A stretch of 64,000 nucleotides of DNA from contig NZ_CP064791.1 in the NCBI RefSeq assembly GCF_017094465.1, positions 124,001-188,000 on the forward strand, written 5' to 3'. Origin of the DNA: Halapricum desulfuricans. GTDB lineage: Archaea; Halobacteriota; Halobacteria; Halobacteriales; Haloarculaceae. Under the pieces are notes generated by a model. That model was not told the DNA's origin. It was given only the letters and a program-made list of their open reading frames with translations, and did no database searches. Shown here piece by piece: positions 22,184-61,366 of this stretch. Position 1 is the first letter of the stretch; each line of letters opens with the position of its first letter. The translations under genes and the position numbers were made by a program.

Positions 22184-22185
22184 AC

Positions 22186-24417: not shown

Positions 24418-24439
24418 CCACCGATCAGTACAACGCTCC

Positions 24440-24895
24440 ATGTCCACGCTGCTGGTTCAGTCATGCTCTAAATCCAAAAAATCGACTACTGAACCGGTCC
24501 AGGCTATCGATTTGTACTCTGGATACTTCTACAAAATAATCAAGAAGTCGAGACGTACTGGAGAGTTTGCGGAGGACATTGACATTGCAATCCTGTCAGC
24601 AAAGCATGGGCTCATCAGCCCAGACGAGCTGATTATGGAGTACGACCAGCGAATGTCGAAAGAGCGTGCAGAGGAACTAGCGGACGAGGTAACTGAAGAA
24701 CTGCGCGAGTTGGTTATCGACGGCGGATATGAGCGAGTCGTGATTAATGCGGGGCAGACGTATCGCCACGCGTTGGACCCCGAGGAGATTCCAGCAGACG
24801 TTTCGTATATCTCTGGAGATGGGATCGGGACGAAGGGGCACGCTCTCAAGAAGTTTATTAATGGGAACGACTCCATCTTGCAGGAGGCCCCGTGA
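24440..24895 (+). CDS. DUF6884 protein, candidate 7-deazaguanine DNA modification factor
   Basis: 151 residues. It has the DUF6884 signatures LLVQSCSKSKK at the N-terminus, DLYSGYFYKI, AILSAKHGLISPDE, EYDQRM, and VINAGQTYRHAL. The fold is related to YaaA (DUF328), and in bacterial Dpd clusters the DUF328 protein DpdC takes preQ0 in DNA to the amide form; a similar job here is inference. The stop overlaps the next gene by 4 bases (ATGA), so it is made with the DpdA-like transglycosylase. Confidence 0.7.
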   Translation: MSTLLVQSCSKSKKSTTEPVQAIDLYSGYFYKIIKKSRRTGEFAEDIDIAILSAKHGLISPDELIMEYDQRMSKERAEELADEVTEELRELVIDGGYERVVINAGQTYRHALDPEEIPADVSYISGDGIGTKGHALKKFINGNDSILQEAP

Positions 24896-27692: not shown

Positions 27693-27826
27693 TTTGATAA
27701 TCGTTCCACTCACGGTTCACAGTAGGTGGCATTCAGCCATCTAACGCCTTGGCGGATCTCTATTTCCCAACACACCACATAGCAAATTGCTCGTAAAGTA
27801 ACTCCGGTGTTCTGCTTGTGTCGATA

Positions 27827-28948: not shown

Positions 28949-29038
28949 GGAGCTTACGAGTAGTCGAGTACCTATAGAATTCATCCCGGCTCTCTAAAAC
29001 TAGAGTACCAACCCGGGTTGTCGCTCACTAAATGAGCT

Positions 29039-39643: not shown

Positions 39644-39731
39644 AATACTCAGGACAACGATCTCACATAAGTGTTAGTCTGCAACCGCCTGCTGGCCTAC
39701 GCGACCTATCTTGCCTATTTCCGATTTCACA

Positions 39732-39737
39732 TTTATA
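39732..39737 (+). promoter_or_regulatory. TATA box of the VWA gene
   Basis: TTTATA about 30 bases before ATG 39765, predicting a near-leaderless transcript and ruling out the earlier in-frame start at 39711. Confidence 0.5.
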
Positions 39738-39764
39738 CCAGATGTTCGTCCACCGTTGAGTGCA

Positions 39765-40400: not shown

Positions 40401-40508
40401 ATCTATCTGTGCAGTAAGTCGGAGCCTGTTATCGATTTAAGTACGATCGTTCTCCTGGAGGTATTGAACGTAGCTCCGGACCCCTGATATCCGACCTTGT
40501 TGCACCGA

Positions 40509-41645: not shown

Positions 41646-44600
41646 ATGCACGACCCCCAACACACCCTTAATGAAGCGGTTGATCGCGCGTCAGAGATCA
41701 CCTGGTGGAACCGCCGGATGACAAAGCTGAACGAGATACCCAATCTCGATAATGCGTACGATTTTGTCGAAACTGATCTAGTCGAACGGAAAGGACCCTA
41801 CCTTGAACTCGTGAAAGCGCCCCAGGCAGCGTCTGAACCAGCAAGCGAGTTTCTGGATTCTCTTGAGTATCACGACGATATCACCAACGCTGTCGTGTCG
41901 GAGTTGTTCGACGGTGACGACTCTGGAAGCCTGTATCAGCACCAAGCCGAGACAATTGAGGCGATTGAACGCACCAACAACGACACGATTCTATCCGTTC
42001 CGACAGCGACGGGGAAAACGGAATCATTCTTCTTCCCGATTCTCAACCACTGTCTCTCGACTGACGAAGAGGGGCTCAAGTCTCTGGTAATCTACCCGAT
42101 GAAGACGCTGAGCGTCGATCAGCTCAATCGCTTCCTCACGTACCTCGACCACATCAATCGCGATCGTGATCCGAAAGACAGGATTACGATCGGGATCTGG
42201 GACGGCGACACTCCACACGACGTCGGATCGAAAGACTACGAGATCGAGGTTGACTCGTTCATTCGTGGCCTGGAGTGTCCCCGAACGAAGGAGAAACTTA
42301 GAGTTCGCTCTTCGACGACTGTGGGTACAGAGAAGACCGAGTATTCGTGGATCCGGGTTACTCGCGAGAGTATTCGCCAGGGTGTGGATATTCTCCTTAC
42401 AAACCCTGAAGCGCTCGATTACATGCTCGTAAACGATTCGGCAGATACCCGTAGTATCCTCGGATCGAGGCCGGGCGAACATCCACTCAAGCACATCGTC
42501 TACGACGAAGCTCACGTCTGGAGTGGCATCTCGGGTGCAGCAATCTCACTGCTGACGAAACGCCTCAAACACTTCTATGGGAATCGGGATCCGCAGGTCA
42601 CGATGGTTTCCGCAACCGTAGACAACCCGACTGAGTTGGCGTCCTCGCTCACTCATACCTCGGAAGACAATATCAACGCGGTAGACTTTACGAGTCGAGA
42701 GGTGCCTGTCAAAGGTACCCCAGACTTTACCAGATTTGATCCGTGTACACTTGACGAACTCGTCGAGACGATTGCGCGTACGACGCTTACAGCAGATTCG
42801 TCTGAGGAACTCCTCTCTCAAAACCCCAATCTGGAAGGCGCGCTGGGGACTCTCCGCGAGGTCAGTCTCGTTCAGGACACATCCGCCGGGCTATCCATTT
42901 CTGAGATCCATGCAGACTGGGTCTGTAGACCAGTTCAGCGTATCGTCGATCAACTAGTCACAGAAGGCGCGTACGACACTGAACGTGCCGTTCTCGATGA
43001 CCAAGATGGTCTCGAACAAGTTGTCGAAGCTGTGGTGAAATCAGGCGGTTCGTCCAGTCAGTGGTACGAATTTGTGATCGACTCTGTGCCGGAAGTAGCA
43101 ACGTTCGCTGCCTGGTTCGATACCGACACGACCGGGAGCGTCGGCTTCAAGAAACAGCCGCAGCTGATCGAATCCGTTGCACGAGAAGGCGCTGAAAACC
43201 CGCGAGAAATCCTCGAAACCGTCATGCACTTCGGCCGGATGGCTGGTATCGTCACAGAAAAATATCACGCGTTCCTCAAACCGCCGCTCAAAGTCCACTG
43301 GTGCCAGGACTGCCACCTCGTCTCTCGCTCCAATGCCTGCCGGGAGTGCGGAGAGGAAATCCCTGAACTCCAGTTTTGCCGGCGGTGTCACTATCCGTTC
43401 GTTGAACGGGGAGAATCCACTGAAGACGACGATGAAACGGACTTCGTTCCAATCGGGACGTCTGAGGTCGTCTCTCACTGCCCTGGCTGTGACAAGTACG
43501 TAAACCTGACTGATATCGAGGTGCCGACTTCGACGCTCCTCTCGTTCATGCTGACGGAGATCTGCCGGACTGCACCGTCGAAAAAGACACTCGTCTTCTC
43601 CGACTCGCACGCCTCGGCGGAGAGTGTCGGCGGCGAGATTATCGGCCAAGAATACGGGTTGATGGCGGAATCCCTCTACGTGAAGGAACTGCTGGATCAC
43701 GACGGAGCCCACGATAACTACGAGATATTCAAAACGGTCTCTGAACAACTCCGAGAGGCGTACTATAACCCGCTGTTCCAGAACGAAATCGACGAGGACA
43801 GCGAGACGTACAACATCCTCCGTCAGCTTCGGAACGACATCTCACAAAACGCGTACCTCTCCAATTGTCGGCACCTTCTCGAAAGCGCCCTCGTCCTCCC
43901 GGAACCGCTTTATCAAGCAACGACGGACGATCTCGATCGTCGAGTTATCGCGACGGAGCTGTACAAACTCTTCGCGCTGGAACCGAGAGTCGGCTTCAGC
44001 AAGGAAACTGTCGATATCGAGGGGCTCACGCGTGAGAAGATCGTCAGCCGGATCGGGAACCGTACGACGCTTTCGGAGTCTGCTATCGCCGACCATGTCG
44101 ATGAATTCCTCCAGATTCTCCTGGATGACCGAGTAATAACGGAGCAATCTTGGGAGCGAATTCAGCAGGCAGTTTCTGAAGGCGATGTAGGTACAGAGCG
44201 TCAGGATAAGGTGTTCGACTACATCGAAGCTCAGCGAGCCCGCGTGAACGACTCTGGGGCGTTTACCAGATCATTCGATAGTGGCGTCTTTACTCGCATA
44301 CCCAAGCAAGACGAGTCGTCACTCCGTCTCATTCCTCGTGTATCATACTGTACAGAGTGTTTCTCGACTCACCCGGTACCTGAGGGTCTGGAAGCCGATA
44401 CGTGTCGGTCCTGTGGTGCAGCGGTGGAGACCTACGATCGGTACGAAATCAAGCCGGACGGCAGCTACGAAGGACAGGGATACGCGGATGTTGACTCCGA
44501 CTGGCAGTGGCCAGTGGACCACTGGGCGTACGAACTCAACCGACCCCTCGAAGAAAGCGAGGATGGCACACCCGAGTTTGTCACTGTAGGGATCCACAAA

Positions 44601-46421
44601 GGGAACATCCCGCCGACGCTTCGTGGTGCGATTGAAGAGAGTTTCCGAAAAGACGATCCGGACGTCAATATCGTGAGTGCCACGCCAACGATGGAACTCG
44701 GTGTTGACATCGGAACTCTCGATACTGTCACGCAGGTCGGGATTCCTCCCAATCTGACCAACTACGTCCAGCGGAGCGGGCGAACGGGCCGAACACGCGG
44801 GAGTTCCTCACTCGTGATGACCGTCGTCCGTGGCGATCATCCCGTTGACAACCACTACTATGCGAACCTCGAGGGGTTCTTCCGGAACTTCGAGCCTGTT
44901 CGGGTCCCCGATCCCTTCGAGTTCGACGAGCTCCTGGCAGGCCACGTTATGACGACGGTGATCGCATATCTGGCCCGTAATCCCCACGAGTCGAATATCT
45001 TCAGTCAAATCTACGAGCTGGAGACGAAAAACACGGACCTGCAAAAGTACGTTAGCGAGGTTACCGAGCGTCTCAACATCCTTCGGGAATTCATTCTGGA
45101 GGAAAAACGATCGGAACTCACGAACTACATTCGCGAGGTATTCGGTGAAGAAGGTGTTCGTGTCTTCGAGCGGATATTCGTCGAAGACGGTAACTTGAGT
45201 CTCCAGCACCGTGCTGATTTCACCTTCCAGAAACTGACAGCGATGTCGGGTTCGACCGAGACGAACAAACGTCTCTCTGAGCGCCACAACCGGCTCGATT
45301 CGTGGCTCTCTCTGCTGGGCTATCTCGCAAATTACCGTGATTTCGGTCAGCAATTCCCGGTGAAGTTCTCCGGGAGACAGGATAGTATTGAATTCGAATC
45401 GAGCGGCCGCCTCTACGATATGTTCCCTGGCGAAGAGAACGCCCTAGGCTCTGTTCTCAGTCTTCACGGGACCCAGTACGTGGTCTCTGATGTTCATGGG
45501 ACGACCACGCCGATCTCGGAAGTGGCAGTCTGCATCAACGAGGATTGTGACCGGCCGTTCCAGGCGTATCAGACCGATACTGAACACTGTCCTCACTGCG
45601 AGGAGCCCCTTGCAGAGACGAACATCCACGGTGTTGGATCAGTCGAATGTCGAACGACCCGCGGCGGTGAGGAAGGATATCACACTCGCGGGATCCTTTC
45701 GACGCACATTGCGCCAAGCGAAGGTGGTGACGAGGTCACCGTTGATGAACGTACGCTCTTCGGAGTCCAATGTCCCGTAGAGTACGGAGAATACGCCGTT
45801 ACTGACTTCGTGTACGCGTTCGAGCGGGGACACTCCCGGAGCCCTGACCGGACTACGCTTCGCTCTGAGGCGCTCATCGAACGCGAGAAAGGCGGGTCGA
45901 GCGAAGGGCTCTCCTGGGAGGAGCGACTCGAAGACGTCTCGAAGGAGACCTACGCTCCGGTCGGCCAGCGATACCATACACAGGGCCTGAAGCTCAACCT
46001 GCCGCGGTCTGAGCTTGAGGAGCGTCTCTCTGAGGCTCTCCCAGACGAGACAGATTGGCCCCAGGCTATCGCGAGCTTCGAGCAGGCGCTCACGAAGGCC
46101 GTCGCGATCGTGGGCGAATTCGATCAGCAGGACTTCCGAATCAAAACAGTCCTGAAGCCCGAAACAGTGGAAGTCTATCTCGTCGATGGCCGGCAGGGTG
46201 GCAACGGCATTACCTGGCGCATTCGCCAGGAGCTGGAAGACGATCTACTTTCAGCCATTGCCGAGGTTGCTGCGTGTGAGCGGTGTGCTGACTTCTGCGA
46301 AGAATGTCTGCTTCTCTCGAGAACGCCGCCAGCGTATCTCGAGAACGACCTTCTGAACAAGTACACGCTTCGAGCATTCCTCGGTGATTCGACCATGGCT
46401 CTCACTGACGGAGGAGATTGA
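41646..46421 (+). CDS. Giant DEAD/DEAH-box helicase with MZB/DUF1998-type C-terminus
   Basis: 1591 residues. Walker A PTATGKT at 119-125, motif II DEAH in YDEAHVWSG, motif III SAT in MVSATVD, helicase C-terminal domain with SATPTMELGVDIGTLD and RSGRTGRT. Several zinc-ribbon Cys sets lie between (WCQDCHLV, CRECGEE, CRRCHYP, HCPGCDKY) and near the C-terminus (ACERCADFCEECLL, after VDGRQGGNG, as in the MZB domain of DUF1998 helicases). DISARM DrmA and the Dpd helicases are of this type; which one is nearest cannot be told. It heads the run of genes to 53801; 72 bases separate it from the next. Confidence 0.88.
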   Translation: MHDPQHTLNEAVDRASEITWWNRRMTKLNEIPNLDNAYDFVETDLVERKGPYLELVKAPQAASEPASEFLDSLEYHDDITNAVVSELFDGDDSGSLYQHQAETIEAIERTNNDTILSVPTATGKTESFFFPILNHCLSTDEEGLKSLVIYPMKTLSVDQLNRFLTYLDHINRDRDPKDRITIGIWDGDTPHDVGSKDYEIEVDSFIRGLECPRTKEKLRVRSSTTVGTEKTEYSWIRVTRESIRQGVDILLTNPEALDYMLVNDSADTRSILGSRPGEHPLKHIVYDEAHVWSGISGAAISLLTKRLKHFYGNRDPQVTMVSATVDNPTELASSLTHTSEDNINAVDFTSREVPVKGTPDFTRFDPCTLDELVETIARTTLTADSSEELLSQNPNLEGALGTLREVSLVQDTSAGLSISEIHADWVCRPVQRIVDQLVTEGAYDTERAVLDDQDGLEQVVEAVVKSGGSSSQWYEFVIDSVPEVATFAAWFDTDTTGSVGFKKQPQLIESVAREGAENPREILETVMHFGRMAGIVTEKYHAFLKPPLKVHWCQDCHLVSRSNACRECGEEIPELQFCRRCHYPFVERGESTEDDDETDFVPIGTSEVVSHCPGCDKYVNLTDIEVPTSTLLSFMLTEICRTAPSKKTLVFSDSHASAESVGGEIIGQEYGLMAESLYVKELLDHDGAHDNYEIFKTVSEQLREAYYNPLFQNEIDEDSETYNILRQLRNDISQNAYLSNCRHLLESALVLPEPLYQATTDDLDRRVIATELYKLFALEPRVGFSKETVDIEGLTREKIVSRIGNRTTLSESAIADHVDEFLQILLDDRVITEQSWERIQQAVSEGDVGTERQDKVFDYIEAQRARVNDSGAFTRSFDSGVFTRIPKQDESSLRLIPRVSYCTECFSTHPVPEGLEADTCRSCGAAVETYDRYEIKPDGSYEGQGYADVDSDWQWPVDHWAYELNRPLEESEDGTPEFVTVGIHKGNIPPTLRGAIEESFRKDDPDVNIVSATPTMELGVDIGTLDTVTQVGIPPNLTNYVQRSGRTGRTRGSSSLVMTVVRGDHPVDNHYYANLEGFFRNFEPVRVPDPFEFDELLAGHVMTTVIAYLARNPHESNIFSQIYELETKNTDLQKYVSEVTERLNILREFILEEKRSELTNYIREVFGEEGVRVFERIFVEDGNLSLQHRADFTFQKLTAMSGSTETNKRLSERHNRLDSWLSLLGYLANYRDFGQQFPVKFSGRQDSIEFESSGRLYDMFPGEENALGSVLSLHGTQYVVSDVHGTTTPISEVAVCINEDCDRPFQAYQTDTEHCPHCEEPLAETNIHGVGSVECRTTRGGEEGYHTRGILSTHIAPSEGGDEVTVDERTLFGVQCPVEYGEYAVTDFVYAFERGHSRSPDRTTLRSEALIEREKGGSSEGLSWEERLEDVSKETYAPVGQRYHTQGLKLNLPRSELEERLSEALPDETDWPQAIASFEQALTKAVAIVGEFDQQDFRIKTVLKPETVEVYLVDGRQGGNGITWRIRQELEDDLLSAIAEVAACERCADFCEECLLLSRTPPAYLENDLLNKYTLRAFLGDSTMALTDGGD

Positions 46422-46493
46422 TGATCACAGGATCTCATCTCGCCGAACGCATCAGTATGCCATCGGAGGCGAATTCGGAGCGAAGAGGGTGAC

Positions 46494-47402
46494 ATGAGTC
46501 TGGACTATCTTAGAACGCGAATGGACCAAAACGAGGTCGCGTTCATCTACGACGAGATCGGCGACCGTGGATTCGGGATGCTACGGTGTCTTCCGGTCAT
46601 TCACTATCTCGGTGTTCACCACTTCACCTTCCCGAAGCGGTGGCGGCAACTCTCGTCACCCGCACAGTACGACTATCTTGATTACGAGTACGAACTCTTG
46701 GGTGAAATCGACCTTCGAGACGAGATGCTCTGTGCGATTACGAATCAGAACTACGAGACGCACACCGAGTTCACCATTCGCCCGCTGTTACACCGTTACG
46801 AATCGAGCGAGGCGACGTTCGTGGTCATTGCAGATCACCATGACTTCGATCCACAGGAGGGTCAGCGGATGCTCCGGATGCAGCCGTTCGTCTACGACAT
46901 GGGATCGTATAGACAGGTATACAGTTATTTCGAGGATCACTACGAGGAGGTTGGTGTGGGATGCCCACTCATAGACACCGCGAACTTATTTATGCAAGAT
47001 AACGCCAATCTTTATCGAATGGTGACAGGACAACAGCTCACTCGGACACGGGAGTTGTTCGAGGTTCTCCCTGACGCCCCGTACCTGCCGCTGTACGAAG
47101 CGTTCGTACAGATCTTTAGCCGGCGGCGTGAGCCGGGTGCCTCACCGCTTGATTCGTTTGCGGAGATCGAAGGGCTTGGTCGCTGGTTACGGCGTCGGCT
47201 GGAATGGGATCGTCAGAAAGCGCTGGAGGTAGCCCGGTCGCTCAACCGCCGGGTTGACGCTGATGAGAGTACGTTCGATAGCGCACAGCGCAGCCGTCAT
47301 CCGATGATGGAAGAAGCAACGTCCGTAGCCAGGACCATCGACTCGACTGAAAGTGACGTGCACGAACGCTACATGCGGTGGCTAAGCAAGGTGGTACAAT
47401 GA
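46494..47402 (+). CDS. Hypothetical protein of the defence operon
   Basis: 302 residues, no cysteine cluster or membrane segment. Segments such as GMLRCLPVIHYLGVHHFTFPKRW, FVVIADHHDFDPQEG and a C-terminal helical region (WLRRRLEWDRQKALEVARSLNRR) suggest an alpha/beta protein of unknown fold. It overlaps the next gene by 4 bases (ATGA). By size and place it could correspond to DpdI of the bacterial system, but I could not confirm this from motifs. Confidence 0.6.
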   Translation: MSLDYLRTRMDQNEVAFIYDEIGDRGFGMLRCLPVIHYLGVHHFTFPKRWRQLSSPAQYDYLDYEYELLGEIDLRDEMLCAITNQNYETHTEFTIRPLLHRYESSEATFVVIADHHDFDPQEGQRMLRMQPFVYDMGSYRQVYSYFEDHYEEVGVGCPLIDTANLFMQDNANLYRMVTGQQLTRTRELFEVLPDAPYLPLYEAFVQIFSRRREPGASPLDSFAEIEGLGRWLRRRLEWDRQKALEVARSLNRRVDADESTFDSAQRSRHPMMEEATSVARTIDSTESDVHERYMRWLSKVVQ

Positions 47403-48247
47403 GTTCTTCAGAAGCTTACATCCTCAACGAAATTCAAAATCCGGCCGCGTTGCGGGTCGTTTTCGACTCGATCGCGGACGGGAATGAGACGAAAGAAGAG
47501 ATTCAGGAAGACACGTGTCTCCCCGATGGATCGACCGAAGAAATTCTCGGTGGCCTCGTTCTTCTGCGACTAATCAGTCGTTCAGACTTCGGATACGAAG
47601 CGACTTCCTTGAGTTGGGACACTGGAGATCGCCACCGTGACTTCCAGCTGTCTGCACTGGAGAACCTCGCGAAGGAGGCAACCGCAGAGGACTGGGGGAA
47701 GCAAGCCGCGGTTCTCCTCAACTACGAATATCTAATTTCGCGCAACATCCAGGAGTTCGAGAACAACGAGAGAGCGCTCTACGAAGATATTGACTATTGG
47801 ATCAAGAAAGAAACGGACTATCGACCGAAAGGTGACGGTGAGATCTACAAGCACAATGACGTCAAATTCGCGAACTGGACCCGTCTCGTGGAGTATCTCG
47901 GCCTCGTTCACAAGGTTTCTGGACGCCAGCACACGGTGTATCCAGACCCAGAACTGATCTTGGCGTCTATTCGACGTGCTACTGAAAACTATCCTGTACA
48001 AGGCGAGAAGGCAGATATCGAAGTTCGGGACTATCTCGAATGGCTGGATTCGAACCTGCTACGGATTGGCTACTCAACAGGAGGTACCGTTCCTGAGATC
48101 CTAACGCAGTGTCTGTTCTCGTTAGTTCGATCACGCCAGATCCGACTCGTCGAATACGGTGACGCAGGTTCCGTCACGTTCACACACCTGCCGAATCGTG
48201 CGCACTCCGGCATCGACCAAGAAGCGAACTCAATCAAACTACTATGA
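47399..48247 (+). CDS. DpdG-like winged-helix protein
   Basis: 282 residues from MSSSEAYILNEIQNP. The N-terminal part (AALRVVFDSIADGNETKEEIQEDTCLPDGSTEEILGGLVLLRLI) is a winged-helix-like unit, repeated in weaker form in the middle and at the C-terminus. It matches DpdG in size and position, directly before the large ATPase (DpdH-like). A DNA- or partner-binding adaptor is likely. ATGA overlap at both ends. The name is by context. Confidence 0.6.
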   Translation: MSSSEAYILNEIQNPAALRVVFDSIADGNETKEEIQEDTCLPDGSTEEILGGLVLLRLISRSDFGYEATSLSWDTGDRHRDFQLSALENLAKEATAEDWGKQAAVLLNYEYLISRNIQEFENNERALYEDIDYWIKKETDYRPKGDGEIYKHNDVKFANWTRLVEYLGLVHKVSGRQHTVYPDPELILASIRRATENYPVQGEKADIEVRDYLEWLDSNLLRIGYSTGGTVPEILTQCLFSLVRSRQIRLVEYGDAGSVTFTHLPNRAHSGIDQEANSIKLL

Positions 48248-51129
48248 GCCAAGCGTTCACCTGTCCCCACCTAGATCATGTTGACGACGCAGAGTTTCAG
48301 CGACTGTTCAACAAAGTCGCCGCAGTACGAGCTGAAGATCCGGAGCTGTTCGATTTTACACATCGACAGATATCGGTATATCCCTCAGGTGCGGCAGATC
48401 AAGAGAATCCCCCTGTTATTACTGAGGACCAAATCCTTCAAAAGCTCAACACGCAGCGACACGGAAATCACGCTGTAATCATCGAGGGCGAAGTCGGCAC
48501 TGGAAAGTCTGAGCTGTGTGCTTACCTCGTCCATCAACTTCGGGACCAGAATCGCCCAATCCTTCGAGTCGATAAAGACGACGACTTGATGACCATCCTT
48601 ACGCAACGACTGCCTGACTTCCACGAGAAGCACTTTGGCGAGTCACTCCCACAAAAAGACAAATTCCAACAGCTCGAAGACAATATCGAAAATATCCCCC
48701 ACGTGGTTGCGAGCCGGGCAACTTCGGGAGCAATGATACGCTTCACGAGCCAGGGGTTTGATGTCTCAGTCACGTCTGATGAAGAAGATGTAATCGTCGA
48801 TATCGTTGAAGGTCGTCTTGAGAAACTCGTCAAGCGTGGGGAGTACGGCAAGCGGATGGACATCATATCAGAGCAACAATACGAACGTGAGGAATCCCTC
48901 GATGTCTTTGACGAATCACTCAGCACGACGGATGCCATCGATATCTGGAACGATGCTCTGTGGAATCAAATTCAGGACCTGTACGAGACACCCTCACTCT
49001 CGGAAATGCTGAAACTGGTCGGGCAACGTTTTGAAGATACGCGCCCGGTGGTAGTCTTCGAGGACTTCGGAATCGCATCCGTCGAAGCGAAGAAACTCAG
49101 GAATTACATTGAGCGGGATATCGATGAGGACAACTGGGACTTCATAATCGCCGGAACGCGGGATATCACCGAAGTCCTGCATACCCAGACTGCCGAGGAT
49201 CGTTTCGAATTCTATCAGACGAACCGTCCTGACTCGAACAGCGTTCTGTTCTTGGATAAGGACTCAGCTGTTGATTTCATTCGACCCTATCTTGGCTACT
49301 TCAAACACTACGACGACAGCGTCAACTACGAACGCGACGAGGTAGGAAACCCTGTCCAGCTTCTGGACCCTGCGCCAAACAGCGAATGTTCCTCATGCAA
49401 TCTCTGTTCAGACGAGTATCGCGACCTCTTCCCGTTCAACGAAACCTTCCTCAGGCGAATCTACGAGGGACTAGAAGAAAGCCAGCAATCTCCCCGGGAA
49501 TACGTCTCAAAGGTCTTCGACATCCTCTACGAGTACTACGTCGGTGGGACTGCTGTTCCGTCGAGTTCGAATCAACTCGGTAGCGATGTCACCAATAGCG
49601 AAACCCCGGCAGATAAGGTATATGAGCATAAAGAAGAGTTTGCTGACTTTGCAAAGTGGTATGGTGAGAAGCAAAACGGCTATTATCAAATTGACTCTGC
49701 ATTAGCCTTTGCGTTCGGTCTTATTCCAGAGAAGAAAATGGAAGCAGAGTATGATGCTGGTATTCAGGTCACACCTGAGATAATTAAAATACCCTCTGGA
49801 GATGGAAACGGAGGCACAACTCCCCCGAACCCTCCTGAAATAAAGACACGCGTAGAGCAAATCTTTGACGAGTGCCGAGGTGACGTTGATGACTGGATAG
49901 ACGACCCGAAGAATAGTCGCTTCACGAAGACGAACAATTACATCCAAACCGCTGTGGAGGACCTCATCAGCCACATCACGGACGACTATACTATTTGGAA
50001 TGATAGCGATCTAAGATACAATCTGAGCAGCCAGAAACCTCCATTCGTGTGGGAAAACTCGGTTGACGACCCACAACCGGATCAGATCGTGATAAATCCA
50101 CGTGAATTCAGACGGTCGGAAATTAGGGACCTACTTCGCCACGGAATCGAAGCTGAAGAGAAGGCTGACACGTTCGATAGAGAGAAACAACTCGAAAACC
50201 ATGGTAGCCAATTCACCGATTACGGTCAGCTATGGCGTAAAAACATTCGCTGGAACTTCATAGAGGACGACCCTCTGCTGTACAGGCAGTCGCATCAGGG
50301 TCGATACGACTTCGATGACTTCGTGATTGCTTCCTACGCATGGTTGGTCCTGCTCGATAACCCTTGGAAACCATTGACTCCGGATCGTATCAACGAGCGA
50401 TATACGGACGAAGAAGAGTTATCCATCGACAATCATCTCGATTCACAGCTTGAATACTTCCTGAATCGGGACACGTACGTTGAAGTTACCGAGGTGTTCG
50501 ACCACGTCGATGAACTCGAAGATCTGGTTGAGGCCCGCTTTGGGGTGACGACGAGTGCACTCGACGTTCGAAGCATTCGAGAGCGATTCAACCGTGCTAC
50601 TCCATACGAGATTCTCGACGCATTGGCGAAGACCTACATCGACAAGGTCAACGGACGTGTTCGATTCGCGCCAAAGAATACGCTCCCAGATATCGCTAAT
50701 GCTGTCTACAGTTGTTTCAACTCAGTGGACGACCTGGAAGAGGAAGATACAGCGCCTAACGTGAGTCGTCACGCTCTGCTGCGATTGCGCGAGACCGATA
50801 TGGACCGAATCAACGAAATCGCCCGCGATCTGAAGACGTACAATACAGTCGAATCGAGCTTCAACACAGCACTTCAGCACTTCTCGGACCACGACCAGTC
50901 GGACATCCTCGAAGTCCGTAATGCGGCCAAATTCATGCGGAACGAACTCGAAGATGAGTTCGGCTCGCCGACTGACCAGAATCGCGTCCACGCTGAACTT
51001 GCAAATCTGAAACTCTTCGGCCATCCCGTATTCAGAGATCTCGATGCTCTCGAAGAAGAGTGGGCGACACCAGGTGAGAATGGGGCCGGGACACGATTCA
51101 CGGAGGTGGCAGAGCACTATGTCCAGTAA
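48244..51129 (+). CDS. DpdH-like AAA/STAND-type ATPase
   Basis: 961 residues. A Walker A loop GEVGTGKS lies at 82-89, followed by a Walker B-like strand VVVFEDFGI near residue 270 and DFIIAGTRD. A Cys set CSSCNLCSDEY sits near 380. The C-terminal half is long and helical with no known domain. Bacterial Dpd clusters have a DpdH ATPase of about this length beside DpdG; here the order G-H is kept. It likely powers or controls the nuclease partners. It overlaps the previous gene by 4 bases and the next by 11. Confidence 0.7.
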   Translation: MSQAFTCPHLDHVDDAEFQRLFNKVAAVRAEDPELFDFTHRQISVYPSGAADQENPPVITEDQILQKLNTQRHGNHAVIIEGEVGTGKSELCAYLVHQLRDQNRPILRVDKDDDLMTILTQRLPDFHEKHFGESLPQKDKFQQLEDNIENIPHVVASRATSGAMIRFTSQGFDVSVTSDEEDVIVDIVEGRLEKLVKRGEYGKRMDIISEQQYEREESLDVFDESLSTTDAIDIWNDALWNQIQDLYETPSLSEMLKLVGQRFEDTRPVVVFEDFGIASVEAKKLRNYIERDIDEDNWDFIIAGTRDITEVLHTQTAEDRFEFYQTNRPDSNSVLFLDKDSAVDFIRPYLGYFKHYDDSVNYERDEVGNPVQLLDPAPNSECSSCNLCSDEYRDLFPFNETFLRRIYEGLEESQQSPREYVSKVFDILYEYYVGGTAVPSSSNQLGSDVTNSETPADKVYEHKEEFADFAKWYGEKQNGYYQIDSALAFAFGLIPEKKMEAEYDAGIQVTPEIIKIPSGDGNGGTTPPNPPEIKTRVEQIFDECRGDVDDWIDDPKNSRFTKTNNYIQTAVEDLISHITDDYTIWNDSDLRYNLSSQKPPFVWENSVDDPQPDQIVINPREFRRSEIRDLLRHGIEAEEKADTFDREKQLENHGSQFTDYGQLWRKNIRWNFIEDDPLLYRQSHQGRYDFDDFVIASYAWLVLLDNPWKPLTPDRINERYTDEEELSIDNHLDSQLEYFLNRDTYVEVTEVFDHVDELEDLVEARFGVTTSALDVRSIRERFNRATPYEILDALAKTYIDKVNGRVRFAPKNTLPDIANAVYSCFNSVDDLEEEDTAPNVSRHALLRLRETDMDRINEIARDLKTYNTVESSFNTALQHFSDHDQSDILEVRNAAKFMRNELEDEFGSPTDQNRVHAELANLKLFGHPVFRDLDALEEEWATPGENGAGTRFTEVAEHYVQ

Positions 51130-51808
51130 ACGTGATTTCTCTCCGATCCAGTCCGATCTCGAGCAGGTCTACGAACAGTACCAACAACAGCATCTCTACG
51201 AAGAACTCGACGATATTGCGGATCAGATGGAAGAGACGCTGCTCCAGTGTGTCATCGCCAACAATCTCTTCGAGCGCAGTCTATCGGTGAATCAGAAGGC
51301 CAAAGATACCGTAGAGGCAGCCCAGGCAGCTGTTCAGAATGACGATGTTCATCGGCTGGAGGACCTTCTTCCTGAGGTCGAAACTCGCGTTGACGAGGAA
51401 GAAACGCGCATCAACAACGAAATTCAGGAATCGCGGATCGAGATGCACGAGACGGTCAGAGCTATGCGGGGTCTGAACGAAGAGATCCAGGTGTATAACC
51501 AGGGGCGATTGAGAGGACTAGAAACGCTCCTTGACGACTGGAGTTGGAAGCAACACGTCTACACCGAGGAGAACAACTCGTATGAGGAGCGGTATAACGA
51601 GGCTGAAGAATTCGCAACCGATATGCGATCCGTATTCGACGACGCGAAGCAAGCAATCGGTGGCGAGTTCACCGGTCAAGAAATCGAATCGCTAGTAGAT
51701 AATCTACTAAACGAGGGCGGCGTCTCGTTTACTGAGCTTTCGCCTGAACAAATACAGGCTCTCGCCGACTCCGAGATCAGCTCCTACCTCCATCTGTCAC
51801 TTGGATAA
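51119..51808 (+). CDS. Coiled-coil protein of the defence operon
   Basis: 229 residues from MSSKRDFSPIQSDLEQVY. Almost wholly helical and acidic, with heptad-like stretches (QVYEQYQQQHLYEELDDIADQMEE, ETRINNEIQESRIEMHETVRAM). No enzymatic motif. It starts inside the end of the DpdH-like gene (11-base overlap), so it is made with that ATPase and could be its structural partner. Confidence 0.65.
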   Translation: MSSKRDFSPIQSDLEQVYEQYQQQHLYEELDDIADQMEETLLQCVIANNLFERSLSVNQKAKDTVEAAQAAVQNDDVHRLEDLLPEVETRVDEEETRINNEIQESRIEMHETVRAMRGLNEEIQVYNQGRLRGLETLLDDWSWKQHVYTEENNSYEERYNEAEEFATDMRSVFDDAKQAIGGEFTGQEIESLVDNLLNEGGVSFTELSPEQIQALADSEISSYLHLSLG

Positions 51809-51896
51809 GTCGGGTTACCTCTGTCGCACTAAGTTTATAAGGGATCAAGCCACCACTTACAATAAGACGACGCGACGTGGTCGCGTCACGGTTCCG

Positions 51897-53099
51897 ATGG
51901 TATCGCTCACAAGTGAGGAAGAAGACGTTATTCAAGCAATAGCGGCGTGTCTGTCTATCGCGATCGCTGAGGATCCCGAACTCACTCCAGACGATCTCAA
52001 TAAAACTCAAACGCAGAAACTGCTGTACTTGGCAATAGACGAGTTCGATCTCGACGTCACCTACAGCTGGTATTTAGCCGGCTCTCTCGTCGAGAGTAGC
52101 GCTGTTTCGCCGTCGAATCTGGAAACTCCAGACAGCCCCGCGACTCCCACAGAGCCGTCCGTTACCGATGACTCATCCTCCGAAGAGGATTCGACAGCGT
52201 CTTCTGTAGAGGCAGAGCCACCGGCGGAACCAGATGAAGAGGTCGCTCGTGAGTTCGATATCGAGAGAGAGGCAGATTCGTTCTTTCCGGAAGAGAGCAC
52301 AGCCACCGAAACGGCAGATTCCGTTAGTCAACCTGACCCGGGGCCGTCGATCGAAGAGCCAGATCTCACGATGACATTCGACAGCGACGATATTGACCTT
52401 CCTGAGGAGGTCGAGGTCTCGGTATCCGACCTCGTTGCGTTTTTCAAAGAAACACTCTCGAACTATCCTCTTACGTCTACTGATCGCTTTTTACAACATT
52501 TCTACCACTACCACGCCCCAGCGAAATATCAGGAGCTGTACGAGAGCTGTCTCCATGTGCGCAGTTCTCTTCGAGGGGTCAGAGATTCTGTTCGCGACGT
52601 CGTCAAACAGGGCGGTGACGGGGCCAAGATCGACAAGTACAGCGACGAAGTTGGTTTACACCTCTCGGATCTGCATTTCGGATTATACGAGCGTGAGGAG
52701 CTCCGAGACACGCTGAACGCGGTCGTCCAGGGAACAGACATCATCGAAGACAGTCTAATGATGTTGGCCAGGATGGATCCGGACGAACTCCGTTCAGAAC
52801 ATATCGAAGCGATTGAAGAGTTACAGTCATTCTTCTACGAATGGGTCTGGAAGTATCCCGCGCTTCGTATTTCCCGAGAAACGGCTACGGGCCCTTCCGC
52901 AGAGAGGATCCGCGAGGCACGTGAAGCGACACTCGCCGAATTCGAATCGGGGTTTATGCAGAAGTCGGAGGAGGTACTCGCGAGATTAGATGATGTCGGA
53001 CTCGTCCCCGAGTACGAAGACTATCCCGACTACAATCGCGACTCTCTCAATGAATCTATTTCAGACTTATATAGCGCCTACACGTTAGACTTCTCGTAA
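51897..53099 (+). CDS. Hypothetical protein with acidic linker, possible Panacea-like N-terminus
   Basis: 400 residues from MVSLTSEEEDVI. The frame is open to 51801 and could start earlier, overlapping the upstream gene. Residues 1-70 (LNKTQTQKLLYLAIDEFDL...YSWYLAGSLV) recall the start of Panacea/SocA-type domains, which have K-L-L-Y and Y-x-W-Y-x-x-G; the likeness is weak. A 120-residue Ser/Thr/Glu linker follows, then a helical C-terminal domain with no motif. It is followed 3 bases later by the PIN gene. Confidence 0.5.
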   Translation: MVSLTSEEEDVIQAIAACLSIAIAEDPELTPDDLNKTQTQKLLYLAIDEFDLDVTYSWYLAGSLVESSAVSPSNLETPDSPATPTEPSVTDDSSSEEDSTASSVEAEPPAEPDEEVAREFDIEREADSFFPEESTATETADSVSQPDPGPSIEEPDLTMTFDSDDIDLPEEVEVSVSDLVAFFKETLSNYPLTSTDRFLQHFYHYHAPAKYQELYESCLHVRSSLRGVRDSVRDVVKQGGDGAKIDKYSDEVGLHLSDLHFGLYEREELRDTLNAVVQGTDIIEDSLMMLARMDPDELRSEHIEAIEELQSFFYEWVWKYPALRISRETATGPSAERIREAREATLAEFESGFMQKSEEVLARLDDVGLVPEYEDYPDYNRDSLNESISDLYSAYTLDFS

Positions 53100-53102
53100 C
53101 CA

Positions 53103-53801
53103 ATGTCCCAGGGTCGAGCGGAAGATACTACTTCAGCAATCACCGCTGTCTTCTGCGATACGGGGATTTTCATCAATTACGTCAACCAGGAGTGGGAGCG
53201 CGACCATACAACCGAATTGCTCGAAAACCACTCTTGTGATATCGTCGTGAGCGAGACTGTGAAGGAAGAGTTCGAATCCGTAACTGATCGACGGGAAGAC
53301 GTCTACATGGATCTGCTCGGTTTTATTCTGGAAGAGAAAGGCGATATCGAGGAATTTTCTCCGAGTACCACGCTCCAGGGCAACGATCATTCGCACATAC
53401 AGGGCATCCAGTTTGAGCTCGCAAGTGAGGATCGTCGGGAGGTCGCTCGACGATTGCGACGATTCGGAAAGAAATTCTCCAAGCGTGCTGAGAAGGTTAC
53501 TGACTCCCTGATTGATGAAGTGTTCTATGCTGCACCCCCTTTCATGCTCAGCTTCGATCTTCAGAAAGTCATCGAGAACGAGAACGATTCAGTCATCGTT
53601 GCGGAAGCAGCTGATTGGACAAATGAGGGCGGGTCTGGGTATTTTGCGACGCTAGATAAAGGCGATCTGCTCGAACTTTCGGACGCGATAAACGGGGTCA
53701 TCCGTGAGGAATTCATTCCTGATGCAGTTCTCCACATTGTTTCTCCTGATATTATCAGCGGACCTTCGGCATCCGAATCGAAACCAGCAGATCAGAATTA
53801 A
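53103..53801 (+). CDS. PIN-like nuclease domain protein
   Basis: 232 residues. FCDTGIFINYV places the first acidic residue (D19), VVSETVKEEFESV a second acidic group (E51 onward), and DSVIVAEAADW and ATLDKGDLLEL supply later acidic residues, as in the PIN (VapC-like) ribonuclease fold. It is longer than a VapC toxin and has no small antitoxin gene beside it. It closes the operon, 3 bases after the preceding gene, and is a plausible effector nuclease for the DpdH-like ATPase. Confidence 0.65.
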   Translation: MSQGRAEDTTSAITAVFCDTGIFINYVNQEWERDHTTELLENHSCDIVVSETVKEEFESVTDRREDVYMDLLGFILEEKGDIEEFSPSTTLQGNDHSHIQGIQFELASEDRREVARRLRRFGKKFSKRAEKVTDSLIDEVFYAAPPFMLSFDLQKVIENENDSVIVAEAADWTNEGGSGYFATLDKGDLLELSDAINGVIREEFIPDAVLHIVSPDIISGPSASESKPADQN

Positions 53802-55857: not shown

Positions 55858-55915
55858 ACGCACAAAGCAACTGTTCTTGAAACTCGTGGACGAGCATTTC
55901 AGTGGGGAAGACGGT

Positions 55916-56814: not shown

Positions 56815-57258
56815 TCACTGATAATCGAGTTCAACCTCTATGTACTGATCGACGTCGTCGTACTCGTTCTCGACGATTTGGCAGAGTTCCCTGTTCACGA
56901 ACAAGCCACCGCGTGTGATGTTTGCCGAGCCGATATACACCGAATCTTCGCTCACGACCGCTTTGGCGTGTAAGTCAGGAACAGACCGGACGTCTACGCT
57001 CTCTGAGAGATGAGATTTGATGTAGTTATTGTGCTCTTGGTCCGATCGGATCAGTACCAGAACCTCTGTGTCTCCCTCCAAGGCTTCTATCGCCTTCGAG
57101 AGGTACATCTTCCGTTCGTCGAAGCGGTTGTTCACCGGGAGTACCACTTCGATATCACTGATCCAGGGTGAGACGAGTGCCACCCGATTACTGTGAAAGA
57201 GCGTGTACCCGATGTAGTAGTCGAGTGCTTCAGAAGGTAAGGAAAATGTTTGTGTCAT
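56815..57258 (-). CDS. DpdK-like phospholipase-D-domain protein
   Basis: 147 residues with a single H-x-K motif: LHAKAVVSEDSVYIGSANIT (H97, K99, N113), the half-site of PLD-type nucleases, which pair as dimers. In bacterial Dpd systems the last gene (dpdK) is a small PLD-domain protein next to a large helicase (dpdJ); DISARM has DrmC in the same role. It is translated from within the 3' end of the helicase gene (29-base overlap). Confidence 0.78.
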   Translation of the reverse strand: MTQTFSLPSEALDYYIGYTLFHSNRVALVSPWISDIEVVLPVNNRFDERKMYLSKAIEALEGDTEVLVLIRSDQEHNNYIKSHLSESVDVRSVPDLHAKAVVSEDSVYIGSANITRGGLFVNRELCQIVENEYDDVDQYIEVELDYQ

Positions 57259-60200
57259 TGAGTTCTGCTGCTGGTAATTGCTCGCGGTTGAATATTTGTT
57301 CTTTCGCTTCCGCTACTGGCGATTGTTCGATCAGGTGGTCGTACAGCCTTTCCAGAAGGACGTAGCTGAGTGAGTCTTCCTGGGCGTGCCCAGAGATACA
57401 CTCCGAGAGATGGAGGTTTTCGACGCATCCGTCGATGTCTGGTGAGAAGAACAGCGACTTGATCGATTCAGCATGCGTATCGAGGTCGATGTCGAGCTCT
57501 TCTAACCTGTCTCTCGGGAGCTCCTCTTCACCTTCCATCTGGGCCGATGCGATTTCGTGTTTCACTCGATAGGGGACCAGGAGCGAGTCACTTCCGAGTG
57601 TCTGTCCAAGTTGATCGGCCCGATCAGCGGTTGACAGGAATTCCTGTGTAATCCGATCTTGGACATCACTATACGGAATATCTACGTGCTCGGAAACGAT
57701 CGTACGAGCTTCGGATTCGTCTGGCGCTCGCTTTGGCGGGAGATCAGCCAGTACGTCGCTGTCTGCCCACAGGCGCTCGTTGATCACCTGTGGGTTGAAT
57801 ACCGTCCGATTCAGTGCTTCGAGGACGTTGCCGGGGTCAGCTTGCAGCTCTTCGTAGAAGAGATCGACAATACCCTGCCCGCCTTCCGTTCGCTCGAAGA
57901 CGAACACTTCCTCTCGTACCGTGTCGATGCCGTAGAAGAGCATCGTCTGATTCACGCCGCTCACATCCGAGACGAGCTGCATCAGTAGGTGGGCTGCGGT
58001 GTGGTACCCGAGATATTCGAATTCCACCTCATCCAGATCCTTGTATTTCGAGATTTCGTTCCTCACATCTTCGTCAAGCGTTCGAAGGAACGACCCGACA
58101 TCCAGCGAGACACCTCGGGTGTCGAGCGTGAAGCCGAGCGGACGTGACGGGCTCTCAATCTCGCGTTCGATCCGATCCTCGTCAGCCCACACGTAGCCAA
58201 TTCCAGGACCCTTGTAGGTGGCAGGAGTGATATTCAGCGTGACTCCCTCTAGTAAGACATCTCCAGTCACGTTACAGAGGGAAAGTGCCCCTCTCTGGGA
58301 TTCGACTTCTCGATCGCGTAGAACTGTCTTCACCTGCGGGTCTGAATGGATTTTCCCGTAAGCCCGGTCGTTGTGTTCGAGGCACGAATCGATATTTGAG
58401 ATGATCTGCAAGCATTCCGGGCAGTAGCGAACGATATTGCTTGCCGTATCAGAGAGATCTGTGACCTCGTCCAGTGTGATCGACTCTGGCACAGCCATGT
58501 TTGGCTGGTCGTCGGTGGGCACACTGCTGAAGTCGAATTGTACCGTGGAATCAGAGTCCTCGGTACTGCTCTCTACGACCTCCGTATCGGGCATGAATAG
58601 CTGGCTCTTGCCCGTTTTCTGCTGATACTCGCTCCGATAGGGTGCATAGGAGTGGACGATGGAATCGATCGATTCTTCGCTTCCATCGAGGTCACTCTCG
58701 CCCCTGAAGACGGTCAGGTACTGACCGCTACTCTCGAAGTAGTTGGGCGGAACGTACCAGACCTCTCCAAGTGATCGGCCCTCTACGTTGAGGAAGCGCT
58801 CGAAGTAGTATGCCGCCCGAAGTAGGTTCTTGACGTACCAGACACTGAGGAACGGCTTGTTGTTGCGGTATTTCTCGTCAGAATCGAGATCCCGGTAGTC
58901 CTTGAGTTGCTCTACTGTCTGCTTGAGGTAGTACACCTGTCGTCGTTCCTGGCTCAACTGTTCGAGACGCTCGTCCCCGGCCAAGCCGGCAAGCATAGTG
59001 ACCGCTTCCTGTAAATCGTCAATCTTCCCCAGTCCGACCTCCGATACGCCATCTTCGGCATGGCGGTCGGCAGATGCTCGCATACCCATCAAGTATGCTG
59101 CCTGCTGCGTGATGTCGGCAAGTATCTTGTTGTACCGCTCGACTCGCTCTTCTGCGGAGAGGCTTCGATAGTCGGTAACCTGCTCACGCGCTGCATCCAG
59201 CTCTTCTCGAACAATTTCGCGTTGTGAATGGTCATCGAGCTGGCCATGCTCTTCTAAGACTGTCTCATACTCCTCCAATTTCTCGAGGTACGTCTGGATT
59301 TGTTCGAGTACGCGCTCTTGGATATGAGACAGATACTCGTCGAACGCGTTCTCTCCACGAATTACTTCGTCACCTTGGATATCTACGTATTCCTCGATCT
59401 CCTCGAAATCCTCCGAGAGCGATCGATCCTTGGCGTCAAGCGCTGACTCGACAACTCGCACCGGTTCTTCCGAGAGGAGCGGCTGATCGAGGTGGCCCCC
59501 AATACCGAGTTCAGTAGAGAGGAACTCACCCGGTTCAGTAAGGAAGCGATAGAACTCCTCGCACTCCATTGCGTCGCGTACGAATTCTTCAAAGAAGGCG
59601 AGTTCCTCTTCTCGGGGCGATCGCATTCGGCGCTCTGCAATTCCGCTGGTGATCTGATAGAACTCCCCGAGCTGCTCGTGGATCCACTCTACTACTTTGT
59701 TGTCTGTTTTCAGTGGTGTACGGAGTTCGGAACCGAGGAACCGCTCCGCACGGTAGAACATATTGGCGTCGCCAGTGAAATTAGAGAGATAGACGAAGAT
59801 ATGAGAATCCATATCTTCTTCTCGAGCGGCTCGCCCCGTCCGCTGAATAAATGACGAGAGATCCTGTGGGGTCCGGTATTGTGACACGATGTTGATATCA
59901 CCGACGTCGATCCCTACTTCGAGGAAAGACGTCGAAAGAAGGATGTCGCTTTGCCCAGCAGCTTCGGCATCGAAGCCGGCATCAGAATACACTGGCTCGA
60001 ATCGAAGGTCGTTTTCGAGGAATTCATAGCCCATCTCATCGGCGACTACTTCCCAGTTTTCGTAGCCTTCGCCGGATCTGTGATATTCCCACAGCTTCCG
60101 CTTGTCGCTATGATCAGCATCCTCGAGCTGTGCGAGCTTCTGGTTTATCTGGCTGATACTGTCGATAAACGAGAGTATCTTTCCTCGTTTCCCGTCGCGC

Positions 60201-61366
60201 TGTTGGAGAAGAGAATGCCCAAGCATCATCGTCTGCTGAATCATCATCGGTGATGCTCCAGGGCCGTCGTCGGGCGAAATCATGAAATAATAGTGCTCCT
60301 GATCACCGTGCTCTTCTTTGTAGTCCGATTCCGGCGGCTCGATTGCCTCGATGCTATTTGCCGGGAGATCGAAGAGTTTCTTCGCAAAGCGAGACGGATT
60401 ATCGATCGTCGCACTCGCGCCCAGCCACAGCAGTGGCTGCTCAGTGATTTCGTTGATATTCTCGATAATCTTCGCCGTGTGTGCTCCACGAAGGCCCGTA
60501 TACAGGTGAACTTCGTCGAGCACGATCGAGTCAACCTCGTCGATTATATTGTAGTTGGGCTTGAGAGCAAACAGCTCGAGTGACTCAAGCGTAGTCAAGA
60601 TGATGTCCGGCGTGTCCCGGGTAATCTCTTTTCGCGGTAGAACCAGCTCTCGGTCAGTGAAGCTGTGGTCCGGGTTATTTTCGCATTTGAGCGTATATTC
60701 TCGCGACGTCCCATAGAACTCGAACGAATGGATGTCCTCGTCGTCGCTGCACCAGCAGTTTGCGAGTTTGAATCTTGCAGTGCCGCCTGACCGGTCGAAG
60801 CAGGTCGAATTGTCCTCTACGTCCCCAATCTCGTAGGGCATTCCTCCGATGTAGACACCTACAGAGAGATTGGACGGTCCCTCTCCCCGCATCGTGTCGA
60901 GGTGCTGGAGGACACGCTGTAGCTGGTTCTGGAGCAACGCTCGCCGCGGATAGACAATTATCGTCGAGTCTTGTCTGTCGCTTCTGAGTAGTTGGTATAG
61001 CGGCCCGAGAAATGCTTCTGTCTTACCGAAACCGGTGGGAGCGGAGAATACACCCGCTTGCTGGTTCCCTGTCTGTCGCCGTTTCTGATCGAGCTGATCT
61101 ACGGTTTTCCAACACTCGACCTGGAAATCAAGCGGATCGAAGCCGAAGATGTCGATAATATTCGAGACAAATTGGTTGTCACCGTCGTAAGGTGTTGTTT
61201 TCCGGCGATCTTGCTTGTCCGCCGTATATTTGATCGCTTCCGTGACGTACGGGCGATCGTCTGCGTCCTCATTGAATAGCTGCTTGTTTTCCAACAATCC
61301 CTTGACTACCGGCTCGACTGAATCGTCTATCCTCTCGGGGTTAGTGTTCCGATCAAAGAATTTCAT
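57230..61366 (-). CDS. DpdJ/DrmA-like DEAD-box helicase with MZB-like C-terminus
   Basis: 1378 residues. Walker A APTGFGKT lies at 109-116, DEVH in VLDEVHLYTG near 285, motif III SAT in WLGASATI, and the C-terminal motor has LSTSFLEVGIDVGD and IQRTGRAAR. A Cys group CPECLQIISNIDSC is near 1015, and the C-terminal half ends with FERTEGGQGIVDLFY, as in MZB/DUF1998 proteins. The length and the small PLD partner fit DpdJ, but DISARM DrmA also has this build. Minus strand, overlapped by a small gene at its start and by the PLD gene at its end. Confidence 0.85.
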   Translation of the reverse strand: MKFFDRNTNPERIDDSVEPVVKGLLENKQLFNEDADDRPYVTEAIKYTADKQDRRKTTPYDGDNQFVSNIIDIFGFDPLDFQVECWKTVDQLDQKRRQTGNQQAGVFSAPTGFGKTEAFLGPLYQLLRSDRQDSTIIVYPRRALLQNQLQRVLQHLDTMRGEGPSNLSVGVYIGGMPYEIGDVEDNSTCFDRSGGTARFKLANCWCSDDEDIHSFEFYGTSREYTLKCENNPDHSFTDRELVLPRKEITRDTPDIILTTLESLELFALKPNYNIIDEVDSIVLDEVHLYTGLRGAHTAKIIENINEITEQPLLWLGASATIDNPSRFAKKLFDLPANSIEAIEPPESDYKEEHGDQEHYYFMISPDDGPGASPMMIQQTMMLGHSLLQQRDGKRGKILSFIDSISQINQKLAQLEDADHSDKRKLWEYHRSGEGYENWEVVADEMGYEFLENDLRFEPVYSDAGFDAEAAGQSDILLSTSFLEVGIDVGDINIVSQYRTPQDLSSFIQRTGRAAREEDMDSHIFVYLSNFTGDANMFYRAERFLGSELRTPLKTDNKVVEWIHEQLGEFYQITSGIAERRMRSPREEELAFFEEFVRDAMECEEFYRFLTEPGEFLSTELGIGGHLDQPLLSEEPVRVVESALDAKDRSLSEDFEEIEEYVDIQGDEVIRGENAFDEYLSHIQERVLEQIQTYLEKLEEYETVLEEHGQLDDHSQREIVREELDAAREQVTDYRSLSAEERVERYNKILADITQQAAYLMGMRASADRHAEDGVSEVGLGKIDDLQEAVTMLAGLAGDERLEQLSQERRQVYYLKQTVEQLKDYRDLDSDEKYRNNKPFLSVWYVKNLLRAAYYFERFLNVEGRSLGEVWYVPPNYFESSGQYLTVFRGESDLDGSEESIDSIVHSYAPYRSEYQQKTGKSQLFMPDTEVVESSTEDSDSTVQFDFSSVPTDDQPNMAVPESITLDEVTDLSDTASNIVRYCPECLQIISNIDSCLEHNDRAYGKIHSDPQVKTVLRDREVESQRGALSLCNVTGDVLLEGVTLNITPATYKGPGIGYVWADEDRIEREIESPSRPLGFTLDTRGVSLDVGSFLRTLDEDVRNEISKYKDLDEVEFEYLGYHTAAHLLMQLVSDVSGVNQTMLFYGIDTVREEVFVFERTEGGQGIVDLFYEELQADPGNVLEALNRTVFNPQVINERLWADSDVLADLPPKRAPDESEARTIVSEHVDIPYSDVQDRITQEFLSTADRADQLGQTLGSDSLLVPYRVKHEIASAQMEGEEELPRDRLEELDIDLDTHAESIKSLFFSPDIDGCVENLHLSECISGHAQEDSLSYVLLERLYDHLIEQSPVAEAKEQIFNREQLPAAELNDTNIFLTF

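Follow-up and report, generated by a model that had tools for sequence, protein, structure and literature searches.

Organization of the locus

The window analysed here is a stretch of 64,000 nucleotides from Halapricum desulfuricans. It contains seven ORFs in a row on the forward strand between positions 41646 and 53801 (genes A to G, Table 1). All seven ORFs of the original prediction are present, and they are considered to be real genes because homologous ORFs of similar length, roughly 30-57% identical, occur in many haloarchaea, in as many as 24 genomes. The homologues of helicase A align from position 41646, in agreement with the predicted start, and a TATA-like TTTATATA is positioned at about 41565, before this start. 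For gene E, the start is probably at 51119, which would give an overlap of 11 nt with D. The start of F is the ATG at 51897 and not the TTG at 51801, as the conserved part in an alignment of 10 homologues begins at 51897. Genes E and F are hence separated by 88 nt, in which a second TATA-like element, TTTATAAGG, is found; its presence suggests a separate F-G transcript.

The original prediction described one operon of seven genes, in which the six genes following the helicase overlap or nearly touch. The conserved ORFs do follow each other in one row on the same strand, and the close packing applies to B through E and to F and G. However, the run of touching genes ends at E, since the 88-nt gap with its TATA-like element separates E from F. 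The row is accordingly described below as an A-E block and an F-G unit rather than as one operon.

Table 1 Genes and sequence elements discussed in the text, with positions in the window
Feature	Position	Strand	Evidence
A, YprA-family helicase, 1591 aa	41646..46421	+	Pfam DEAD, Helicase_C, MZB
B, 302-aa conserved core protein of unknown fold	46494..47402	+	24/24 core loci
C, DpdG-like	47378..48247	+	hhalign to DpdG; 24/24 core loci
D, DpdH-like P-loop ATPase, 961 aa	48244..51129	+	hhalign to DpdH; Walker A
E, small coiled-coil protein at DpdI position	51119..51808	+	23/24 core loci
TATA-like TTTATAAGG	51834..51842	+	sequence
F, 400-aa partner, possible Panacea-like N terminus	51897..53099	+	homologue alignment, hhalign
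G, PIN-domain protein, accessory with F	53103..53801	+	invariant acidic residues
DpdK-like phospholipase D-family nuclease, one HKD motif	56815..57258	-	NCBIfam, PADLOC, hhalign
HEL2, second YprA-family helicase, 1378 aa, DpdJ branch	57230..61366	-	profile, tree
preQ0 synthesis operon QueD-QueE-FolE-QueC	20943..23519	+	NCBIfam
DpdC-like protein (DUF6884)	24440..24895	+	Pfam, PADLOC
TGT1, TGT-family base-exchange enzyme without PUA domain	24892..26133	+	Pfam TGT; motifs
GHKL-ATPase gene, same operon as TGT1	26130..27692	+	Pfam HATPase_c_3
TGT2, fusion of TGT domain and ArcS-type DUF5591, no PUA domain	29039..31051	-	Pfam; motif

The core genes A to E

Helicase A is of the ARMADA/Druantia-like type, with about 600 residues separating the two helicase halves and an MZB (DUF1998) domain at the C-terminus. 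Its best PADLOC profile is DruE3, and relatives that are about 45-57% identical are found in 23 genomes. In a tree of 43 helicases, A clusters with the helicases of haloarchaeal "II-like" clusters (support 88), and the deeper fork between this group and ARMADA/Druantia has a support of only 60. Here, "II-like" is a name based on gene layout and is not equated with the Type II of BRIGADE, a system discussed below. Full-length matches to A are confined to haloarchaeal plasmids and genomes, where genomes outside the order were covered by one pattern scan.

Protein B has no Pfam or PDB match, and B, F, and G gave only chance-level matches in a profile search against PDB sequences. B matches the first gene of the II-like clusters (96.5%, hhalign); its predicted structure, based on a four-sequence alignment, has a pLDDT of 38, which is too low to be of use. 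Comparison using hhalign also relates C to bacterial DpdG (95.4%, E 1.7e-8) and to the second gene of the II-like clusters (98.2%), and D to DpdH (98.7%, E 4.2e-16) and to its II-like counterpart (99.1%). Apart from these matches and those of E and the DpdK-like protein given below, window-gene pairs scored below 3% in the profile-profile comparison with bacterial Dpd and haloarchaeal II-like proteins. The suggested likeness to the DpdG-DpdH gene order is thus borne out. Moreover, the Walker A motif of D (GEVGTGKS or a one-letter variant) is kept in all 24 loci. A pattern scan of viral contigs revealed no relative of D.

The profile search that had been proposed for DpdG, DpdH, and DpdI therefore identified the first two, while E gave no sequence match to bacterial DpdI in the profile-profile comparison. 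E does match the fourth gene of the II-like clusters (71%, hhalign). The coiled-coil gene was originally regarded as an addition to a Dpd-like set, but E is part of 23 of the 24 core loci and occupies the position that DpdI has in bacterial Dpd.

A second helicase and its nuclease partner

HEL2 and the DpdK-like PLD protein are encoded by a gene pair that overlaps by 29 nt (56815-61366). DpdJ is the best profile for HEL2, which clusters with bacterial DpdJ with a support of 100 in the tree of 43 helicases. The DpdK-like protein matches DpdK of NCBIfam (2.6e-15, under the curated cut-off), DpdK of PADLOC (3.5e-14), and DpdK in hhalign (98.9%). Homologues of DpdG, DpdH, DpdJ, and DpdK are consequently present as judged by profile and tree, with all Dpd-family matches under the curated NCBIfam cut-offs. 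The DpdK-like protein, which is encoded beyond the seven genes of the original prediction, is a likelier nuclease than F-G.

Between F-G and the DpdK-like gene there is also a two-gene GmrSD-type (type IV) restriction pair (54058-56623). The same two-gene layout is found near TGT clusters or cores in two other genomes (G302 and G077), which led us to reject the idea of a frameshifted pseudogene, and a single-gene form lies beside the core in a third (G046).

Conservation and synteny among haloarchaea

To compare gene order, about 15-36 kb around the core was taken from relatives and every gene was mapped, giving 24 loci including the window. The order A-B-C-D-E is constant in all 24 haloarchaeal loci, with E not detected in one of them (G340). 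These loci come from several haloarchaeal families; Natrinema, Haladaptatus, Natronosalvus, Halorubrum, and Salinibaculum are among the named carriers. HEL2-DpdK is present in 20 of the 24 loci. In eight loci, and in addition on the Natrinema plasmid NZ_CP082247, it follows straight after E on the same strand. The resulting order, A-B-C-D-E-HEL2-DpdK, means that the part from C to DpdK parallels DpdG-H-I-J-K of Enterobacter and Agrobacterium. In the window, HEL2-DpdK is inverted, and F-G together with the GmrSD pair separates the two halves.

Co-occurrence was examined in 342 Halobacteriales genomes, with counts that ignore kinship. In this sample the core ATPase is found in 22 genomes and HEL2 in 23, and 19 genomes have both relative to 1.5 expected. 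TGT1, present in 34 of the 342 genomes, is found in all 23 genomes with HEL2 (2.3 expected). Carriers are found in several families, with a patchy distribution inside each, a pattern shared with other defence genes that move horizontally. In one locus (L055 4953-9371, G184:C16:114952-119370), a complete A-E block is directly preceded by a further C-D-E set, which is divergent (24-32% identical).

The modification genes

The region 20943-31051 encodes QueD, QueE, FolE, QueC, a DpdC-family protein, TGT1, a GHKL ATPase, and TGT2. The genome has a further QueC above the cut-off (C1:242953), its own housekeeping arcTGT, and its own ArcS with a PUA domain, and for this reason the genes in the window are viewed as a dedicated second set. 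The DpdC-like protein matches DUF6884 of Pfam (7.6e-17) and DpdC of PADLOC (3.9e-6). In TGT1, the motifs DSGGF, FDASSY (the FDxSSY segment), and CDCPVC are present and the zinc ligands are kept. The protein is a candidate DNA transglycosylase; we take the aspartate in FDxSSY to be the nucleophile. The GHKL ATPase gene adjoins TGT1 in the mapped TGT1 clusters, and its product may stand in for DpdB, which was not found in the window. No TGT1 was found in phage records.

Of 17 full-length TGT2 proteins, 16 contain the motif PCx3KPYx2Sx2H, presumably the ArcS motif, which the separate ArcS of this genome has as well. As ArcS synthesises archaeosine and acts on tRNA (PMC6313347), an archaeosine-like base in DNA is a reasonable but unproven guess for what is made here. 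In this context, the DNA of phage nt-1, which carries ArcS, holds dPreQ0, dADG, and some dG+.

The ArcS-type domain of TGT2 is, on the other hand, also what would be expected if the 7-deazaguanine genes had a role in tRNA modification or salvage, with the helicase core as an independent defence that just shares islands with them. Consistent with such a division, a distance of 10-20 kb, with other genes in between, separates the modification genes from the core in the window. However, arcTGT and ArcS already exist in the genome, both window TGTs lack the PUA domain that is present in the genome's ArcS, and HEL2 was never found without TGT1, a pairing that is also seen in bacterial Dpd. Together, these points make the tRNA explanation improbable.

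Three core loci (G340, G046, and G212) lack TGT1 and form a separate branch in the A tree. In the first, a 348-aa TGT and a canonical DpdA are encoded beside the core; in the second, a 351-aa TGT gene lies about 14 kb from the core; and in the third, where the core contig is short, a TGT gene is found on another contig. Hence, every examined core-bearing genome has an extra TGT gene, if not always the same one. That the gaps left by TGT1 are filled by another TGT-family gene is counted in favour of the function proposed below.

The F-G pair

Assigning G to the PIN family, as originally proposed, is reasonable: 7 of 12 relatives have weak Pfam matches, and four acidic residues (D19, E56, D162, and D185) are invariant in 12-13 sequences. 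The corresponding proposal for F, a possible Panacea-like protein, is tentative: the similarity is weak, at 59% over 16 columns in hhalign, yet specific, as other families reach at most 1%. F has the N-terminal motif KTKLQKLLYLA...SWYLAG and a long C-terminal region, and its structure predicted from the single sequence has a pLDDT of 43, likewise too low to be of use. A pattern scan of viral contigs detected no relative of F.

F-G is present in 10 of the 24 core loci and absent from the other 14, is mostly convergent with DpdK, and occurs without the core in three genomes (G333, G104, and G052). Among the mapped loci, it immediately follows E in the same orientation only in the window and, past an intervening TFB gene, in one other genome (G240). 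Members of a close PIN subfamily (E below 1e-35) were found in nine of the 342 genomes, all nine with the core (0.6 expected), within about 20 kb of the core and often adjoining DpdK, across several families. Contrary to what would have counted against the original prediction, the ATPase gene and this PIN subfamily share neighbourhoods in all nine genomes.

This tie, together with the seven genes lying in one row on one strand in the window, could be taken to mean that the genes constitute a single operon in which an ATPase-coiled coil-PIN trio forms the effector branch on the Dpd-like G-H genes. The distribution of F-G speaks against it. The supposed effector branch would be missing from more than half of the core loci. 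Where F-G is present, it is usually found behind DpdK in convergent orientation; in the window it is preceded by a TATA-like site of its own, and three genomes have it but no core. Moreover, profile comparison identified no counterpart of F or G in the Dpd or II-like sets. We regard the effector-branch proposal as highly improbable. Instead, F-G is a separate accessory two-gene unit, a frequent hitchhiker outside the core.

In its layout, F-G is similar to toxin-antitoxin systems. An ordinary pair of this kind, or an addiction pair, functionally unlinked to the restriction genes, would account for the two-gene layout, the acidic residues of the PIN protein, the Panacea-like motif, and the occurrence without the core, and Panacea antitoxins neutralise many toxins (PMC8832971, PMC10440598). 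Yet the tie of the close subfamily to core loci suggests more than chance co-travel. An unlinked pair, which is compatible with our preferred explanation for the core, has in our judgement slightly less than an even chance. The link between F-G and the core is statistically strong and its immune role putative; a simple passenger and a functional fail-safe have similar odds.

The surrounding island

Three TFIIB-family genes are present in one island (17921-18679, 31401-32339, and 40497-41483). Relatives of the second are found again next to F-G or the core, both in several genomes and on the Natrinema plasmid, and the system may carry its own transcription factor. A gene for a 224-aa protein without a Pfam match (35397-36071) and one for a vWA-domain protein (39711-40400) recur in BRIGADE-like neighbourhoods. 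Other likely defence or mobile genes are located at 9357-11144, 19608-20780, 32665-33756, 33957-35252, and 61647-63989; the types represented are an Eco57I-type methylase, a Cas4-like PD-(D/E)XK protein, an HNH-repeat endonuclease, a PDDEXK_4 protein, and an XPB-like helicase with helix-hairpin-helix. The region 5502-20780 is an island of mixed mobile elements with integrase/resolvase genes at 5502, 12204, 16229, 18666, and 19063, where GC falls from about 0.65 to 0.38-0.56. Integration at tRNA-Ala (2711) was considered and is unsupported, its 3' end not being repeated elsewhere in the window or the genome.

Proposed function

Considering gene content, homologies, synteny, co-occurrence, conserved active-site motifs, and the helicase phylogeny, we think it likely that A-E is the core of a BRIGADE Type I defence locus that marks host DNA and restricts unmarked DNA, accompanied by an accessory PIN pair. 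By analogy, the most likely function of the locus is Dpd-like restriction-modification with a preQ0-derived self mark; as in Dpd, DNA would be the target of modification, self would be discriminated from non-self, and DNA would be cut. In such a model, QueD, QueE, FolE, and QueC would provide an extra supply of preQ0. TGT1 and the DpdC-like, GHKL, and TGT2/ArcS-type proteins would then convert guanines in host DNA to a preQ0-derived base, the self mark. The products of A to E and HEL2-DpdK would inspect incoming DNA or translocate along it, and the PLD nuclease DpdK would cleave DNA that lacks the mark. F-G would be a linked toxin-antitoxin-like unit and a possible fail-safe.

A more specific version can be formulated, in which the host chromosome carries an archaeosine-type deoxynucleoside mark made by TGT1 and the TGT2/ArcS fusion, the core couples to different modification modules, and the PIN pair is a death switch that acts when restriction fails. 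As a whole, this combination is speculative and rather unlikely. If an archaeosine-like base in host archaeal DNA is nevertheless true, a modification of archaeal tRNA and phage DNA would also serve a third purpose, that of labelling self in immunity. Similarly, TGT modules that are exchanged next to an invariant helicase core would illustrate how the mark can be swapped while the attack machinery stays. The locus also yields gene-by-gene predictions as to which genes mark DNA, which cut it, and which are passengers. These are of interest as BRIGADE rests on the genome analysis of one 2025 preprint.

Comparison with known systems

F-G shares with Panacea toxin-antitoxin pairs the two-gene arrangement, the possible Panacea-like N terminus (F), and a PIN-type nuclease (G). 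However, typical Panacea antitoxins are far shorter than F, which gave no match to the Pfam Panacea model. Druantia III and ARMADA II have a helicase of the same family as A, with a large insertion between the RecA halves, but their partner genes are different (DruH) and no 7-deazaguanine genes were seen in them.

The II-like clusters of Haloferax (pBNX82-4, L109), Salinigranum (L073), and Haloarcula (L072) have counterparts of B, C, D, and E in the same order. They differ in that the helicase, which belongs to the sister group of A, is last and not first, and in that no counterpart of F or G was found; in Haloferax and Salinigranum, two large helicases are encoded side by side. Two further II-like clusters (L022, G046:C1:2650000-2669500, and L023, G033) comprise a DpdH-like gene and a gene for a helicase of ~1850 aa, with their own ~355-aa TGT nearby.

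In Salmonella, Dpd marks DNA and blocks unmodified DNA, with dpdA-C making the mark and dpdD-K acting in restriction (PMC11888242). Compared with Dpd of Salmonella Montevideo, Enterobacter (L077), and Agrobacterium (L117), the locus has DpdG-, DpdH-, DpdJ-, DpdK-, and DpdC-like genes, the G-H-(I)-J-K order in part of the loci, and TGT-family and preQ0 genes. It differs by the addition of the ARMADA-like helicase A, protein B, and the GHKL gene, and TGT1/TGT2 replace canonical DpdA. Using tblastn, DpdA, DpdB, DpdD, and DpdF had no match in the window and bacterial DpdA did not match TGT1, which scores 24.8 against a DpdA cut-off of 200. Classification as Dpd proper was rejected, as DpdA and DpdB were not found in the window.

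BRIGADE Type I, as far as it is described in the main text of the preprint (Bell et al. 2025, PMC12458937), combines an ARMADA-like and a Dpd-branch YprA helicase, typically with a PLD nuclease and a 7-deazaguanine cluster, and occurs only in halophilic archaea. No experimental test of BRIGADE, including antiviral activity, was found in the literature searched. The locus resembles this description in each respect. A is the ARMADA-like helicase (with a support of 60 for the deeper fork to ARMADA proper) and HEL2 the second, Dpd-branch helicase; the 7-deazaguanine synthesis cluster is at 20943-31051; the DpdK-like protein is the PLD nuclease, for which a PD-(D/E)xK nuclease is the alternative; and full-length matches to A have the expected distribution in halophilic archaea, including the host. 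Since these features agree with BRIGADE while Dpd proper fails on DpdA and DpdB, the locus is classified as BRIGADE Type I working like Dpd. The main text of the preprint, from which its supplement may differ, does not mention DpdG or DpdH homologues, an ArcS motif, exchangeable TGT modules, or a linked PIN pair. Apart from what that supplement may already contain, the present analysis adds to BRIGADE the gene-by-gene matches to Dpd, the ArcS motif in TGT2, the exchangeable modification modules, and the linked PIN pair.
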